64,000 bases of DNA from assembly GCA_027485915.1 (NCBI GenBank), contig JAIXQA010000018.1, forward strand, positions 1-64,000, written 5' to 3'. The DNA comes from Alphaproteobacteria bacterium. Its GTDB lineage: Bacteria; Pseudomonadota; Alphaproteobacteria; Caulobacterales; Aquidulcibacteraceae. The translations under genes and the position numbers were made by a program. Below the pieces are notes generated by a model. The model saw only the letters and a program-made list of their open reading frames with translations, did no database searches and had not been told where the DNA came from. Position 1 is the stretch's first letter. Each line of letters starts with the position of its first letter. This document shows, piece after piece, positions 56,247 to 63,202 of the stretch.

Positions 56247-56546
56247 TTACTTTAGATCCGACCGCTTGCGGCCTGGATCGGCACGATCATCGTAGCCGTG
56301 GCGCGAGGAGTAGAAACTCAACCACATGAGGCCAAAGCCTAACGCCAGCGACAAAACCGTGCCCAAACCCATCGCGATCCAGCCATGCATGGAAATCACA
56401 GGGAACCGGCCAATCAAGAAGAGCGACACAAAGCCAGCTAGACTGGCGATTAGCAGCAATACAAGAAACACAATGATCAGCCACGCCCCGCCCGACAAGC
56501 GTTCGACGCGTGCCTTAGGTACTTCAGGGGGCAGACTTCCGGTCAA
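56247..56546 (-). CDS. Small two-segment membrane protein
   Basis: 99 aa from TTG 56546, four bases after the ydbL stop; a longer frame from 56597 would overlap ydbL. Two hydrophobic segments (GAWLIIVFLVLLLIASLAGFVSLFLIG and AMGLGTVLSLALGFGLMWLSF), polar C-terminal tail. No domain recognised. Position just after YdbL suggests the same transcript, but no family link is known. Confidence 0.6.
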   Translation of the reverse strand: MTGSLPPEVPKARVERLSGGAWLIIVFLVLLLIASLAGFVSLFLIGRFPVISMHGWIAMGLGTVLSLALGFGLMWLSFYSSRHGYDDRADPGRKRSDLK

Positions 56547-56550
56547 GGTG

Positions 56551-56982
56551 TTAGTTTGCCTTTGTCGCTGGCGCACAGCGAATGACGACAACGTCATTCT
56601 CTGTTTGCATGACTTGCGAGTCTGGCGTTTTCATACACCAGGTCTTGGTGGTGTCTTGGAAATATTCGCCATTCGGGGTCTTGGTGATTTGACGCAAGGC
56701 CGACAGCAAAGCGACGCGATCTTCGGTTTCGCCGTTCGCTTTCGCCGCGTCATTAAATACGCCGCGGCGACGAATATTAATCTCATTGATCCGCCGCTGT
56801 AGATCAGCTTGGGCAGCCGTTGGCGGGCGCACAAAACCTAAATAGCCGTCAGCCTGCTCGCCAATAACGCCCTGCGCCATCGCCTTATCGACCGGGCCAT
56901 TATTGTCGATGGCCACGGCAGAAGTCGCGATGAGCGCGCCTGCTACCAATATGGCGGTGAAAATCGTGCGTTTCATGTCCAT
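56551..56982 (-). CDS. ydbL: YdbL family periplasmic protein (DUF1318)
   Basis: 143 aa from ATG 56982 (ATG 56976 or GTG 56985 are close alternatives; AGGAG upstream). Signal peptide to about residue 24, then DKAMAQGVIGEQADGYLGFVRP and LQRRINEINIRRRGVFNDAA, the typical DUF1318/YdbL core. In Escherichia coli YdbL modulates the YdbH-YnbE bridge. It is the neighbour of YnbE; the partner YdbH gene lies on the other strand beyond an M23 peptidase. Confidence 0.88.
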   Translation of the reverse strand: MDMKRTIFTAILVAGALIATSAVAIDNNGPVDKAMAQGVIGEQADGYLGFVRPPTAAQADLQRRINEINIRRRGVFNDAAKANGETEDRVALLSALRQITKTPNGEYFQDTTKTWCMKTPDSQVMQTENDVVVIRCAPATKAN

Positions 56983-57030
56983 CACTCTCCTAAAGCGCGA
57001 CCTGTCTTGTGGTGCGCCTGTGTCAGGGGC

Positions 57031-57228
57031 TTAGAATATGCCAGGATTGGCCTGTGCTGCCTTGTCGAGCTCACGCTCCAATTTAACCCGCACAGTCTGT
57101 TCAATCTTCATATTGATATTCAGATTGATCTCGATCGGCTTGTCAGGCACCTGCAGGCGAACTGTTGGCGTGCAACCGGCAATGCCAACCAACCCAACGG
57201 CGCTTATCGCAAGAAGACTGTGACGCAT
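57031..57228 (-). CDS. ynbE: YnbE-like outer membrane lipoprotein
   Basis: 65 aa. The signal sequence ends with lipobox GIAGC; then TPTVRLQVPDKPIEINLNINMKIEQTVRVKLERELD, the YnbE core, a beta strand thought to stack onto YdbH in a bridge across the periplasm. AAGGATGG precedes the ATG. It runs just before ydbL in one operon and is read after a terminator of the M23 gene. Confidence 0.88.
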   Translation of the reverse strand: MRHSLLAISAVGLVGIAGCTPTVRLQVPDKPIEINLNINMKIEQTVRVKLERELDKAAQANPGIF

Positions 57229-57342
57229 GGGGCCATCCTTATCAGCACGGGCCTATCCCGTAAGACAGTCATAGCATGACAATCCAGATGTGAACCCCCC
57301 ATGAACTTCACGATGCACAGCGGTTCATGTTTCAGGACAACA

Positions 57343-57370
57343 AGAAAACGCCCCAGAATTAACCGGGGCG
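57343..57370 (-). terminator. Intrinsic terminator of the M23 peptidase gene
   Basis: On the minus strand: CGCCCC (57370-57365), 10 nt loop, GGGGCG (57354-57349) followed by TTTT (57348-57345). Located 28 bp past the stop codon; it separates the M23 and ynbE transcripts. Confidence 0.8.
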
Positions 57371-57397
57371 CGCTTGAAGTGCTCAACACGGAGACTT

Positions 57398-58705
57398 TTA
57401 GTTTGTAATGCGGGTCGTGCCGGCGCCTGATTGTGCAATCGAGGTCGAACCAATCGCTTCGCGGCGCATGGAATCGATGCGGGCACGGAAGGCATTAAAG
57501 CGAGCCAATTGGTCAGCCTGCAAAGCTTGGCCTGTTGGGACCCCTACGCCAAGCGGATTGATTGCCTGGCCATTGCGACGAACTTCATAATGCAGATGTG
57601 GGCCAGTCGAGCGACCCGTATTGCCCACAAAAGCGATGACATCGCCTTGCTTCACGCGGTCGCCGGGACGCAAGCCAGGCGCAAAGCGGGAGATATGGCC
57701 GTAGCGTGTCGACCACGTACCGTCATGCTGGATATCCACGACATTACCATAGCCACCCATTGCACTTACGCGAGTTACAACACCGTCCCCAGCCGCTAGA
57801 ATAGGCGTACCGATTGGCGCACCGAAGTCCACGCCTTCGTGCATTTTGGTATAGCCCAATACAGGGTGGACGCGTCCGCCGAATCCAGATGTTAGACGGG
57901 CACCGTTGATGGGCGTCCGCATCAGGAATTTGCGGGCAGAACGACCAGCAGCATCGTACCAATCAGACGAGCCCGAACCTGGAGGCTGGAATCGGTATAA
58001 TTGTATGGTACGACCGCCGGCGGTCGTCATGCGCGCGAAAACAGGTTCGCCTTCGCGCACAACTTGGCCACGCAAGTCGGACACACGATCGTACATCAAT
58101 TCAAACTCTGTACCTGGGCCTACTTCGCGCTCGAAGTCGACGTCGTAAGCAAAAGCTTGCGCAATTGAATCGGCGGCCCGATCTGGTGCGCCCAATTCGC
58201 GCACTGCATTCACCAAGCCGTTTTGACCGATAACGCCAGCGATACGCAGGGTCTTACGCTGCATATTGGTGGTCATCTCACGGGCACGGAACACATTGTC
58301 GATGCCGCGCGTTACCGTAACAGAACGCTCAGCTCCGCTGGCCAAATTGAACCCGGCCAAACGATTACCACCAGCACCGGGCTGCATGAAGACGGTTACT
58401 TTGTCATCGCGGCGAACATCGCGCGGATCAAGGCTGCGGGCTAAAGAACGAACCGCGCTCGCCACATCGTCGCGCATGGCACCAGCCCGGATCAAAGCTT
58501 GTTCGAGGGTTTCACCAGCCCGGATCGAAATCGTTTGGCGATCTGATTGACCAGTCCCAGCGGCAAACGCCATATGCTCGAGATTGGCACTTTGGGCGAA
58601 TGCGGTGTGGATGTTTCCTGCAGAGGCCATAAAGCCGATCGCACATCCCAAGCTAAGCTTGACTGCGAGATTGAAGGCAGCGCGACGTTTGGTCGTGTGT
58701 CTCAA
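57398..58705 (-). CDS. M23 (LytM-like) peptidoglycan endopeptidase
   Basis: 435 aa cell wall hydrolase or LytM-type activator. Signal/anchor region at about 12-37. The C-terminal M23 domain keeps zinc ligands: GRVHPVLGYTKMHEGVDFGAP (about 276-296, His and Asp) and GPHLHYEV (about 366-373, HxH). The N-terminal third has a peptidoglycan/LysM-like opening (ISIRAGETLEQALIRAG). The domain is intact, so it may be catalytic, unlike EnvC-type activators. Its own terminator follows. Divergent from ydbH. Confidence 0.93.
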   Translation of the reverse strand: MRHTTKRRAAFNLAVKLSLGCAIGFMASAGNIHTAFAQSANLEHMAFAAGTGQSDRQTISIRAGETLEQALIRAGAMRDDVASAVRSLARSLDPRDVRRDDKVTVFMQPGAGGNRLAGFNLASGAERSVTVTRGIDNVFRAREMTTNMQRKTLRIAGVIGQNGLVNAVRELGAPDRAADSIAQAFAYDVDFEREVGPGTEFELMYDRVSDLRGQVVREGEPVFARMTTAGGRTIQLYRFQPPGSGSSDWYDAAGRSARKFLMRTPINGARLTSGFGGRVHPVLGYTKMHEGVDFGAPIGTPILAAGDGVVTRVSAMGGYGNVVDIQHDGTWSTRYGHISRFAPGLRPGDRVKQGDVIAFVGNTGRSTGPHLHYEVRRNGQAINPLGVGVPTGQALQADQLARFNAFRARIDSMRREAIGSTSIAQSGAGTTRITN

Positions 58706-58987
58706 AAGCTAACCCCTTTAGCCGTTACGAGTACGAATCGTACCCTTCACAGATTAAGTTCGGGTGTGATCCCCGCCCCATTTAACCATATTTTTGCAGT
58801 TTTTTTTCTTATTGTGTTGCCTGAAATACACAAGTTTCAGCATAGAGCAACCCCTCGGCTCAGTCGGGGTCAAATTTTCCACCTGCATTTGCCTCTTTTT
58901 GGTCACTTTTGATCGCAGTTTGGTACAGGTTTGAGCGTCTATGATAAGGGGGTCGAGAAACCGGCCAGAGCAAGGTATAGAGCTTGT
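58706..58987. promoter_or_regulatory. Divergent control region between M23 and ydbH
   Basis: 282 bp. Near the M23 start lies a 13 bp palindrome GTACGA-A-TCGTAC (58731-58743). Further on there is an AT-rich run with eight T (58799-58808 area) and a CCCC/GGGG stem (58851-58868). Bidirectional promoter region by position; no consensus promoter can be called. Confidence 0.4.
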
Positions 58988-61900
58988 ATGAATGACCGAG
59001 TCCCGCCTCACGATGACCTCGAATCTGAGACCGAGACTTCAGGTGTTAACAATGTTAACCATTTGAGTCGCAAAACTTATCTGCGCCGAACTTCGCGTCT
59101 TTGGGGCCTCGGACTCTTCGGACTCGCCTCTGCAGCGAGTCTCGGCTGGATTTGGCGAACAGATCTGGCAGAATCAGGGGTTCAATCACTTCTTCGTGAG
59201 CGCGGAATCGAAGGTGGAATCTCTTTCACAAAATTATCAGTGAATCAGGCCACCATTAAGGATCTGCGTTTAGGTCCAGCTGACAATCCAACCCTTCTTT
59301 TACCAACAGCCACTTTGCGCTGGCATGTGGATATTGGCAGTGGGCGCTTGGTGATCGAGCGTCTTGAAGCCGACGGGGCCAAGCTTCACATCGGCGTCAC
59401 CAAATCGGGCGAGCCAGACTTTGGTGCCCTCAAGCCCTTTTTGATCCCGTCAGACAAGCCTAGCCAAGTGCAGCTAGCCGATGTGGTCCTGCGCGATGCC
59501 TTACTGAGCTTCGACAGCGCCGTCGGAAGAGGTTCGGCTCGCATTCAAGCGACTGGAGGTGACCTTGTAGGTTGGCGCGCACAAGTGCTCCTGACACCGC
59601 CGAAGGAATTATCAGTCCAACAGTCCGTCAGACCGTTGGCATTGGGTCTTGCGCTGATGCCCGCACGAAGCGGCGAAGATGGTCCATCCAGCCCAACACA
59701 GATTGGCTTAGCGCTTATGCCTGATGGGCAGAGCTATCGCTGGGGCGACATGCAGCTTGACCGACTATCTGGCGAGGCTCAGGGCCTTGTGGTGCTAGAC
59801 GGGAAAGGCGGTACGCGGGTCGAGACCCGCACGATCGCACTGAGCGCGCAGAAAGCTCGCCTTGGCAGCCTGTCGGCACTGGGCGTCAATTTACAAGGCG
59901 GCACTGGGCAATGGCAGCATCAAGCGAGTGGCAGCCGTCCTTGGTCCGAAACTGGTTTTGGCTCTTTAATTGGTCGACTAGAAGCGAAAACTGTCACAGC
60001 GCCGCAAGGCAACCTCCAAACTGTTGGCGTGGACTTTTCAACGGCACGCACCCAGACCGGCCTAACCCGCTTCGATGTGAAGGGGAGCGGCACGAAACTG
60101 CTCACAGCGTCATCCATAGGGTGGCAGGCCAATAAAGCGGAGATTACAGGCTTTACGCAAGCCGTGCTGAAGGACTTACGCCACGCACCCGAGGCAAATT
60201 GGGAAGGGCAAACCCAAGTGGCCTGGGCAAATCTAGTCCAACCCAAGGCCCAATCGGCCGATCCCGTTTCTGGCAAAGTTGGTATCGCTTTTTTCTATGG
60301 ACCAAAGCAAGCTGAGTTGCGCTTGGCTGAGCCATCCGACATTTCGCTCAGTTCCGGCCCCAAATTGCGCTTTACTCCGGATGGGAAGCGACCGCCCTTT
60401 GTGCGCTTTGATTTGTCAACGGCACAACCGACCGTTTTGGAGGCTTTTGGAGCCGGTGATCTGACCGTCCAAGCCCCCAATGCTGGCAGAGGTCAGGGGC
60501 GCTTAGAGGATTTTAGTTGGACACCAAAAGGCTGGTCACTGTCAGCGCGAAACCTCGCCCTCAAAAATGTTCCTATTTCAGGAAATTTTTCTGGCTTCTT
60601 GGTTTCGGGCCAAGTGGGCGACATCTCCTTAGCGGCAAAAAGCGGTGAAGTTCCTGTCGGTTCGGGCCGGGGTACAGTAGAAGTGGCTGCTAAGCCCGGT
60701 GCAGCAGGTCTTGGGCTCGGCGCAGGCCGAGCGCGCCTAACCGGTCAAATTCGCGGCAATGGTCAAACCCTGCTGATTTCGCTTGCAGGGCCTGTTGAGG
60801 GATTTGGGAAGAATGGTGCTGGTGCGCGTCAAGGCCGCTTAAGTTTGGACGCCAAGGCAATGCGCAGCCAATCGGTCTGGACTGTCGATATGGATGGCCA
60901 AATGGCTGCCGACGGGTTCCGCTCCACGGACCTAAATGTGCTTAACTTGGCAGGACGGCTAAAGGGCCGGGCACGTCTGGGAAGATTGGCTGCAATTACC
61001 CAGAAGGCTCCGGCCAGCGGCCAATTTGCCTTAAGCCAATTGGGCACTTGGGACGCAAATCTAACATTGGCTGGCTCCGTTAGCCGCCTATCCGCCCAAA
61101 GCCTTGGTATACGCGCCGGCAACTTCACAATGCCCATTCTCGCACGGGGAACGGGTCAGACGATGGAAGCAAGCGGTACCTTGGTCATGGAGGCAGAAAC
61201 CGTTGCCTATGACGACAGCCATGTTGACATGCTGCGCGCCGACGCACCGATCCGCTTCCGCTCGGCTCAAGGTCTAACCCCAGCTTGGCAGGCCGCAACC
61301 ACTTTGAATGCGACAGCCTCCTCGTTCACCTCTGGCGAAAGCCATATTCAAGGGTTGCGGGTGACAGGCCCTCTGCAAGCGATTCCGAACGATGACGGGC
61401 GCGGCATATTAATCCGGGGTGACACTTGTTTGGCGGCCTCGGCTGAACAGGGTCGCTTTCCAGGAGATGCCAGCGTTGGGCCGGTCAAGACCAGCTTTTG
61501 CCCAGATCGCTTGGGGCGCTTTGCCAATCTGTCAGTTTCAGACACCCTCATCTTTGCCGATGCCCGTTTCGAGCCGTTGGAATTGCGACTGGGGGCGCTA
61601 GAGGAGGGCCGATCACTGCGGTTGGGTGCGGTGCGTGGCGATTTTAGGCCTTCTGGGACTGGTGGCTGGCTTTTGGATCTGACCTCCAAAGAACTCGGTT
61701 ATAGTTTCAAGTTGCCCGACGGTGGCTATGCTGAACTTAATGCGCAAGATTCTTCCCTGCGCCTCACCCCTGACATCGGCGGTATGACTTTACGCGGACA
61801 ACTGGCGGGCTTGCGGGCTAAAGGTCTGCCGGTTGAGATTTCCGGCACCGCGACCACAGACTTACAGGCGCGCCGTACGGGCCTTGTGGGCAGCGTTGCA

Positions 61901-63202
61901 TTTGAAAACCTCTTGGTGCGCGATGTTCCGACCTTTTTCCCAGCACCGGATGAAAAGGGGGAAAAAGTGCCACGCCCACCAAGGTTTGGTATGCTGTCCC
62001 TGACCGGAGAGGGCACGATTAACGGCAGTCAAATCGATATCCAAAGCGACATCAGCCTCGCGGAATCAGGCGCGTTTTTAGCGCGCGCGATCTTGAACCA
62101 TAATGCAGAGACAGGCCTTGGTCGCCTCGACGCCCTCGCAGAGACGATCGCGTTTGGTCAAATGCCAAAGGATTCCTCTGGCGCTGTTAGAGAATCGAGC
62201 CGTCCCCTGGATGCTGACGACCTAGTGCCAGCGCTTCAAGGGGTGATTTTGGACGTGGTCGGTGACGTTTCGGGCTCAGCTTCGATGGCGTGGGGTCCCA
62301 ATCAGGCAACGGTGTCAGATGCCAAACTGTCGACAGCCAATCTCGACTTCCTCACGATGCTTGGGCCCGTCACCAATCTGACCGGTGATTTTTCGCTTGA
62401 TGACTTGTTAAAGGTGCGCTCGGCGGGCGAGCAAGGCTTTACGGTTGCTCAATTTGATCCAGGCCTGCCCATTGAAGACGTCAATGTCGTTTTCGCCTTA
62501 CCCGGCGACAATACGCTTGAATTGAAAGATGCGAGTTGGCCCTTTGCCGACGGTAAATTGTCCGTTCGTCCGGCCAGTTGGACCTTCCGAGACGGAGACC
62601 AATCCTTTGCTGTTGATGTCGAAGATGTCGATCTCGCAAAGTTCTTGGGCCTGACTAAAATTCCGAACCTGCAGATTGATGGAAAAGTCTCGGGCGTTTT
62701 CCCAGTCGAAGTTCGCAATGGCAGCGTTGAGATTGTTGGCGGGAGACTTCAGGCGCGCGATGGCGGTGGCAAAATCCGCTATACCGGCCCAGTGCCAAGC
62801 TCCGACCCCAACGCCCCGCCAAAAAAGGTGCCGTGGTACAAACGATGGTTTGCCCCAAAGCCGCCCACAAAAGCCGAGATTGCTGCCCAAGCCCTAAACG
62901 GGATTGAGTACGAGATTGATGTGATCACAGTAGATGGCCGGATCACTGGGGATTTGACCCTCGGCGTGGTCTTGATTGGGGCAAATCCGCAGATCTTGTC
63001 GGGCGTACCCATCAAATTGAATGTGAAGGCCACCCTGCCCGTCGGCCAATTGACCGATATGGCCAACCGCTTCCTCGAAACAGCGACCAGCGCAGATATG
63101 TTGAAAGAGTTGGACAAGCTTGACCGCTCGCAAAATGGCAAGGGCTTTATTCCCACAGAAGAAGAAGACAAGGCCGCCCAAGCCCGAAAGTCCCAGCGCT
63201 AG
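58988..63202 (+). CDS. ydbH: YdbH-family AsmA-like inter-membrane lipid transport protein
   Basis: 1404 aa from ATG 58988 (a TTG at 58931 is upstream). One N-terminal inner-membrane segment (about 38-56), then a very long beta-rich groove region made of repeated strands, ending in the DctA-YdbH domain: VRNGSVEIVGGRLQARDGGGKIRYTG, LNGIEYEIDVITVDGRITGDLTLGVVLIG and ILSGVPIKLNVKATLPV. Such proteins bridge the periplasm to carry phospholipid, with outer membrane partner YnbE. Large for the family (Escherichia coli YdbH is about 880 aa), so the groove is longer. Confidence 0.9.
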   Translation: MNDRVPPHDDLESETETSGVNNVNHLSRKTYLRRTSRLWGLGLFGLASAASLGWIWRTDLAESGVQSLLRERGIEGGISFTKLSVNQATIKDLRLGPADNPTLLLPTATLRWHVDIGSGRLVIERLEADGAKLHIGVTKSGEPDFGALKPFLIPSDKPSQVQLADVVLRDALLSFDSAVGRGSARIQATGGDLVGWRAQVLLTPPKELSVQQSVRPLALGLALMPARSGEDGPSSPTQIGLALMPDGQSYRWGDMQLDRLSGEAQGLVVLDGKGGTRVETRTIALSAQKARLGSLSALGVNLQGGTGQWQHQASGSRPWSETGFGSLIGRLEAKTVTAPQGNLQTVGVDFSTARTQTGLTRFDVKGSGTKLLTASSIGWQANKAEITGFTQAVLKDLRHAPEANWEGQTQVAWANLVQPKAQSADPVSGKVGIAFFYGPKQAELRLAEPSDISLSSGPKLRFTPDGKRPPFVRFDLSTAQPTVLEAFGAGDLTVQAPNAGRGQGRLEDFSWTPKGWSLSARNLALKNVPISGNFSGFLVSGQVGDISLAAKSGEVPVGSGRGTVEVAAKPGAAGLGLGAGRARLTGQIRGNGQTLLISLAGPVEGFGKNGAGARQGRLSLDAKAMRSQSVWTVDMDGQMAADGFRSTDLNVLNLAGRLKGRARLGRLAAITQKAPASGQFALSQLGTWDANLTLAGSVSRLSAQSLGIRAGNFTMPILARGTGQTMEASGTLVMEAETVAYDDSHVDMLRADAPIRFRSAQGLTPAWQAATTLNATASSFTSGESHIQGLRVTGPLQAIPNDDGRGILIRGDTCLAASAEQGRFPGDASVGPVKTSFCPDRLGRFANLSVSDTLIFADARFEPLELRLGALEEGRSLRLGAVRGDFRPSGTGGWLLDLTSKELGYSFKLPDGGYAELNAQDSSLRLTPDIGGMTLRGQLAGLRAKGLPVEISGTATTDLQARRTGLVGSVAFENLLVRDVPTFFPAPDEKGEKVPRPPRFGMLSLTGEGTINGSQIDIQSDISLAESGAFLARAILNHNAETGLGRLDALAETIAFGQMPKDSSGAVRESSRPLDADDLVPALQGVILDVVGDVSGSASMAWGPNQATVSDAKLSTANLDFLTMLGPVTNLTGDFSLDDLLKVRSAGEQGFTVAQFDPGLPIEDVNVVFALPGDNTLELKDASWPFADGKLSVRPASWTFRDGDQSFAVDVEDVDLAKFLGLTKIPNLQIDGKVSGVFPVEVRNGSVEIVGGRLQARDGGGKIRYTGPVPSSDPNAPPKKVPWYKRWFAPKPPTKAEIAAQALNGIEYEIDVITVDGRITGDLTLGVVLIGANPQILSGVPIKLNVKATLPVGQLTDMANRFLETATSADMLKELDKLDRSQNGKGFIPTEEEDKAAQARKSQR

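Follow-up and report, generated by a model that had tools for sequence, protein, structure and literature searches.

Rearranged genes of a probable YdbH-YnbE-YdbL phospholipid bridge, with an M23 endopeptidase divergent from ydbH

The last 8 kb of the window, the 64,000-nucleotide stretch of DNA that we analysed, hold a system that is already known, in a gene order that is new. We consider it likely that the locus encodes the YdbH-YnbE-YdbL phospholipid bridge from genes rearranged by an inversion, with a separate promoter for ynbE and with an M23 endopeptidase, whose role here we infer, alongside ydbH. Neither this M23 pairing nor an operator at ynbE is described in the titles and abstract openings of the papers listed by our literature searches on YdbH. 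The subject bears on the delivery of phospholipids to the outer membrane and on the matching of that flow to the growth of the wall. The locus also provides two testable handles in tractable bacteria: an order-wide association between the genes of a bridge protein and of an enzyme that cuts the wall, and a separate conserved repeat at the gene of the cap.

The ydbH homologue, predicted to encode the inner-membrane arm of the bridge, is on the plus strand (58988-63202, 1404 aa; PF11739, E = 2.5e-49, 169.4 bits for a cut-off of 26.3). Divergent from it, the minus strand carries, in the order of transcription, a MepM/ShyA-like M23 endopeptidase gene (57398-58705, 435 aa, TTG start; Peptidase_M23 PF01551, E = 1.8e-35), ynbE (57031-57228, 65 aa; PF13617, E = 1.3e-12, 47.7 bits for a cut-off of 25.8), ydbL (DUF1318; 56551-56985, 144 aa; PF07027, E = 9e-20, 71.4 bits for a cut-off of 27), and the gene of a small membrane protein of 116 aa, TM116 (56247-56597). 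All three bridge proteins score above the Pfam cut-offs. The YnbE homologue, a predicted outer-membrane lipoprotein that would form the cap, has a lipobox-like IAGC (read by eye from the sequence), and the hydropathy of the YdbL homologue reveals a hydrophobic N-terminus resembling a signal peptide. The Pfam matches and coordinates confirm the first-pass annotation, which had placed ynbE, ydbL, and M23 on the minus strand and a 1404-aa YdbH on the plus strand. They also agree with its view that an operon of the Escherichia coli type is split here, as the bridge genes are on opposite strands in all 9 genomes of the genus; the locus thus departs from a single same-strand operon in its arrangement, not in its protein families. 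The ATG start of ydbH is kept in all 9 aligned genus sequences. A second ydbH or ynbE that might be the true partner was looked for and not found: PF11739, PF13617, and PF07027 each have a single match in this genome, which is 99.96% complete.

Just 3' of the M23 gene there is a terminator-like hairpin with a T tail (57371-57348, minus strand). The hairpin scan alone proves little, with 5 terminator-like sites in the region and 3.0 in shuffled sequences; a comparable hairpin is nevertheless found in 8 of the 9 genus sequences (window included), in line with the earlier suggestion that M23 has its own terminator. A scan for sigma-70 promoters resulted in 2 sites for 1.7 expected in shuffles, nothing above chance, and for this reason none of our promoter assignments uses it. 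The putative divergent promoter region of M23 and ydbH (58706-58987) has a mean column identity of 73% in the alignment of 9 genus sequences. It includes a T-tract followed by TGTGTTGC-nTGAAATACACAAGTTTCA; related T-tracts with a AAATACAC-like element are present in two sister genera, g6 (L043) and one locus of g13 (L039). On the other side of M23, the minus strand carries a direct repeat upstream of ynbE, analysed below, and between this repeat and ynbE a short palindrome, GTCATGCTATGAC (57268-57280), of which GTCATGCTAT is invariant in 9 aligned genus sequences. This layout suggests three transcription units: the divergent region would drive both ydbH and M23, and ynbE-ydbL-TM116 would have a promoter region to itself.

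We compared the gene order with that of relatives at two scales. The window's own genome and 60 relatives (61 in all) from its order, which we take to be Caulobacterales, were searched for YnbE (matches in 51) and YdbH (matches in 54), and M23, YdbH, YnbE, YdbL, and TM116 were mapped on the retrieved regions with purpose-built profiles. The order loci leave out the YdbH matches of G041, G049, and G052, which look linked by their coordinates, and that of G048, a weak match inside a TamB frame. The sample of the class has 143 genomes, 48 of them with a YdbH match, and provided 40 loci outside the order, each at most 20 kb long; the matches of five of the 45 non-order genomes (G086, G146, G167, G174, G189) are not among them. 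An M23 gene is divergent from ydbH at a distance of at most 2.5 kb in 44 of the 50 order loci (window included) and is present in none of the 40 stretches retrieved from the rest of the class. The ynbE/ydbL genes are directly downstream of ydbH in 30 of the 50 order loci and in 31 of the 40 others; in the remaining 9 of the 40, they were not detected adjoining YdbH. Hence, the divergent M23 is a trait of the order, because it is frequent there and absent from the loci sampled elsewhere, and the contiguous ydbH-ynbE-ydbL operon is a wider trait. Linked operons have a short ydbH-ynbE gap (median of 27.5 bases, from raw ORF starts). The ancestral state in the order would therefore be an M23 gene divergent from a ydbH-ynbE-ydbL(-TM116) operon. 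The first-pass annotation had seen M23 as lying between the halves of a broken operon, and this did not hold: M23 is the old divergent neighbour of ydbH, and it is ynbE-ydbL that switched sides. A recent insertion of M23 into the operon was considered and rejected, as M23 is already beside ydbH in linked relatives. The objection that the M23 neighbour might lack conservation in relatives also fails.

All 9 genomes of the window's genus (g1) share the window's gene order. In three other genera, ynbE-ydbL are on a separate contig and M23 is still with ydbH: the sister genera g13 (5 genomes) and g6 (1), and g24 (3), which belongs to another family. The trees of YdbH and M23 both group g1, g4, g6, and g13 in one clade (supports of 100 and 100/100). 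Therefore, the junction of ydbH and ynbE was probably broken at least twice, the event in g24 being independent. The shortest route that we see to the window's order is one inversion of the M23/ydbH pair: inverting this pair in M23(-) ydbH(+) ynbE(+) ydbL(+) TM116(+) gives TM116(-) ydbL(-) ynbE(-) M23(-) ydbH(+). It would have taken place once in the genus, one breakpoint being behind M23 and the other at the ydbH/ynbE junction. This history is probable rather than certain because the genes flanking the locus in the genus differ from those of linked relatives, and a history in two steps is conceivable because the sister genera have ynbE far away.

The neighbouring genes help to locate the break. 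Several families of the order have a gene for a ChpT-like histidine phosphotransferase behind ydbL(-TM116) (L026, L029, L030, L037, L137, L138, L140). This gene remains next to ynbE-ydbL in all 5 g13 genomes and in 2 of the 3 of g24; all 3 g24 genomes keep a ClpA-like gene near the M23/ydbH pair. Both neighbours are placed as in linked relatives (each family name was drawn from one member). Since one neighbour stayed with ynbE-ydbL and the other with M23/ydbH, the break lies between ydbH and ynbE. In the window's genome, the ChpT-like gene is on a different contig. TM116, unnamed in the first-pass annotation and recognised from hydropathy, an alignment of 15 sequences, and its position in linked operons, has no Pfam family above the cut-off. 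Its gene begins 47 bases before ydbL ends, and its consensus is HGWIAxGLGTVLS...SFYSARxGYDD. In families f1, f2, and f3 of the order, it takes the fourth place in the ynbE-ydbL operon. M23/YdbH pairs closest to families f2 and f3 occur on contigs titled Hyphomonas, Henriciella, and Brevundimonas. Two isolated cases were also recorded: a contig of a metagenome bin titled Bordetella sp. (L061), probably misbinned, has M23, YdbH, YnbE, YdbL, and TM116 closest to f3, and a further YdbH/YnbE pair is located on a separate contig of G022 (G022:C9:188966-192607).

The M23 protein has the catalytic domain of its family, as indicated by the family match, the active-site positions, and the relatives of solved structure (6muk, 3slu, and ShyA 6u2a). 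Positions H289, D293, H337, H370, and H372, which presumably have the catalytic and zinc-binding roles known in M23, are invariant in 14 aligned sequences. The best named matches are well below the NCBIfam equivalog cut-offs (ShyC, 166.6 for 700 bits; ShyA, 150.3 for 700; MepM, 146.6 for 341). What this enzyme does beside ydbH can be read in several ways. It could be a dedicated partner of the bridge that cuts the wall locally to let the YdbH rod through. The intact active site, the divergent pairing in 44 of 50 order loci, and the persistence of the pair in g1, g13, g6, and g24 after ynbE had left are in keeping with this. We nevertheless judge it improbable: no M23 neighbour is found in the 40 YdbH loci retrieved from other orders, the E. 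coli locus, as PMC8593681 names it, has no M23, five order loci lost the enzyme (G012, G023, G054, G056, G060), and a divergent gene pair may have no more in common than its promoter region. We favour the co-expression of M23 and ydbH for balanced envelope growth over such dedicated hole-making. M23 would most likely be expressed alongside ydbH, pacing the expansion of the wall with the supply of lipids to the outer membrane. There is an independent precedent for the coupling of lipid flow to wall cutting in Pseudomonas aeruginosa, where the overproduction of YdbH, TamB, or YhdP is reported to make a protease complex that breaks down wall endopeptidases less active and to raise the level of PA1048, one of its substrates (PMC12569750).

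Co-expression has a serious rival, to which we give a substantial though minor share of the probability: the M23/ydbH pair may be synteny inherited within one order, devoid of functional link, and the split a neutral reshuffling. The gene order indeed decays at both junctions, with M23 missing in the five loci above (G009, which would be the 45th locus with the pair, has an M23 fragment at a contig end) and 20 of the 50 loci without ynbE/ydbL behind ydbH (two of these, G009 and G011, being uncertain from contig ends). Against this rival, the pair is found in all five sampled families, even if the YdbH proteins of other genera are only 17-27% identical to the window's.

A direct repeat, TTCA-N7-TTCA, caught our attention ahead of ynbE in split loci, and we then scanned up to 340 bases upstream of ynbE for it and compared spacings of 0 to 20. 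The window has an exact copy (57291-57305, minus strand). Exact copies are present in 15 of 18 split order loci (the 18 include G009 [L017], uncertain from contig ends), in 17 of 31 other order loci (the 31 include L033, where ydbH was not found and the upstream sequence is missing), and in 2 of 31 loci outside the order. These counts are not independent because the loci are related, but 31 sites are spread over 12 genera. The spacing is specific: 32 of the 49 order loci have the repeat at spacing 7, and none of the other spacings compared (0 to 20) occurs in more than 4. Apart from L033, 13 more of the 31 other order loci are without an exact copy (14 in all). The repeat was not found at the ynbE of L014, from the window's genus; in L036 and L037, it is present with a single mismatch. 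The genus-weighted consensus is approximately TTCAGnnCcsGTTCAG. A matrix derived from these same ynbE sites, applied to 60 order loci with a minimal score of 16, matched 28 loci at ynbE and gave 5 matches elsewhere (L033, L046, L047, L131, L138). Two of the latter, L046:12679 and L047:8561, are in g24 genomes, each next to where a gene of cluster c60 (around 230-244 aa), located downstream of ydbH in both, begins. In 13 TamA/YhdP loci, the matrix had two matches, one inside tamB (L202) and one just upstream of tamA (L203:4306); the genome of the latter, G037, has no exact copy at its ynbE. The control of both M23/ydbH and ynbE by one repeat is not supported, as only 1 of 43 M23/ydbH regions (L011) has an exact copy. 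With one mismatch allowed, there are 17 matches for 8.9 in shuffles, over 42 of the 43 regions, a weak excess at scattered positions that we do not take as a sign of a single regulator for the three units.

A period of 11 bases suits regulators of the OmpR family. Read on the other strand, the repeat is TGAA-N7-TGAA and fits the TGA-N8-TGA motif given for CenR, which regulates the envelope of Rhodobacter sphaeroides and is essential there (PMC9275681), a motif that is loose; the regulon of CenR in Caulobacter is described as unknown (PMC11389396). The repeat is a candidate operator of the OmpR family (CenR type), and such an envelope regulator would probably bind it. Because linked operons carry the repeat too, the separate control of ynbE-ydbL is probably older than the split of the genes. 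It may have made this split tolerable: a promoter region carrying a TTCAG-N6-TTCAG-like repeat would already have served ynbE-ydbL alone. As the outer-membrane half has this putative and probably older control site to itself, the two halves of the bridge could be regulated separately. Our results thus retain one part of the first-pass claim that expression was uncoupled, since ynbE-ydbL looks like its own transcription unit, and qualify the other, since the control site is not special to this genome and occurs in relatives with an intact operon. One could go further and view the cap as a regulated valve, with ynbE-ydbL dosed by an OmpR-family regulator through its own operator and ydbH tied divergently to the wall-opening M23. 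This proposal is tentative, and we would put it at about one chance in four. If it were true, the split would expose a two-module logic (rod and wall opener; cap and helper) that is hidden in linked operons.

The length of YdbH raises the question of the width of the periplasm. YdbH has 1230-1450 aa in the clade of g1, g4, g6, and g13 (16 rows) for 941-1205 in 33 other order loci (excluding L018, where it apparently occupies two frames), and a median of about 890 aa in the 40 loci outside the order. The structure of the window's YdbH was predicted with AlphaFold2 for residues 205-1404. The model is rich in strands (mean pLDDT of 82, pTM of 0.54), with 47 strands of at least 8 residues and 733 strand residues; the full model of a linked relative with 1143 residues has 49 such strands and 682 strand residues (mean pLDDT of 85.7). 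The window's protein thus has somewhat more predicted strand than a relative of normal length and, with its 204 unmodelled N-terminal residues, probably several more strands in all. Fold searches gave a heterogeneous set of weak matches (ApoB100 and LptD on top with Foldseek; porin-like barrels and ApoB100 with VIA-align), and we excluded them from the evidence on lipid transport. Other bridges are long too. The open frames of TamB have 1571-1588 residues in five g13/g6 genomes for a median of 1404 in 39 others (leaving out the incomplete frames of G011, G030, and G034), and those of YhdP have 1422-1459 in nine g1 genomes for 1161-1230 (median of 1176) in 7 others (leaving out the split matches of G010). 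All membrane-spanning bridges may therefore have been lengthened together in a clade with a wider periplasm. We find this possible but rather unlikely: one clade amounts to a single case, TamB frames as long as 1593 and 1528 also occur outside it, and the YdbH model gains only modestly in strand. The first-pass reading of the large YdbH as a sign of a wider periplasm or an extended groove is accordingly weakly supported, favoured by the strand-rich model and the long TamB and YhdP and weakened by the modest excess of strand and the equally long TamB elsewhere.

The distribution of these other bridges is itself uneven. TamB had no match in any of the 9 genus genomes and matched in all five g13 genomes. 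TamA had only a BamA-like match in the genus, at 76-80 bits, for 805-829 in five genomes with TamA, whose scores are high by construction because these five proteins are rows of the profile. Neither was found in G009, G010, G016, and G039. The missing TamB, AsmA, and TamA matches suggested that YdbH might be the only bridge of the genus, which we rejected: a YhdP-like protein of about 1451 aa is found in 9 of 9 genus genomes at E <= 0.001, in 8 of them above the cut-off. YhdP was not found in the four g13/g6 genomes tested. G039 and G047, from one genus of family f4, have no YdbH or TamB match and have YhdP/AsmA-type matches. Each of the 21 genomes tested for YhdP matched at least one of the three bridges (G047 only by a YhdP match below the cut-off), in line with the essential role that the three are reported to share in E. 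coli (PMC8593681, PMC10900882). These patchwork losses, with TamA/TamB not found in one genus and YhdP not found in four genomes of sister genera, provide natural combinations of three redundant bridges.

How does this locus compare with known systems? By its best matches, the M23 enzyme is of the same type as MepM, ShyA, and ShyC, far under their equivalog cut-offs, and it differs in being divergent from ydbH; to our knowledge, no connection between these enzymes and YdbH has been reported. TamB and YhdP belong to the same superfamily as YdbH and have the same proposed role according to PMC8593681; in the window's genus, TamA and TamB were not found and a YhdP-like protein is present. In E. 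coli, the locus is named ydbH-ynbE-ydbL (PMC8593681) and YdbH is reported to interact with YnbE (PMC12977461). The window encodes the same three families, with the same proposed inner-membrane rod and outer-membrane lipoprotein, and the assembly would most likely be as in E. coli, with YdbH in the inner membrane, YnbE as the outer-membrane cap, and YdbL as a helper. It differs in that the genes are spread over both strands, probably as three transcription units, and in the repeat at ynbE, the M23 neighbour, and TM116. The YdbH of E. coli has 879 aa, and that of the window is around 1.6 times as long.
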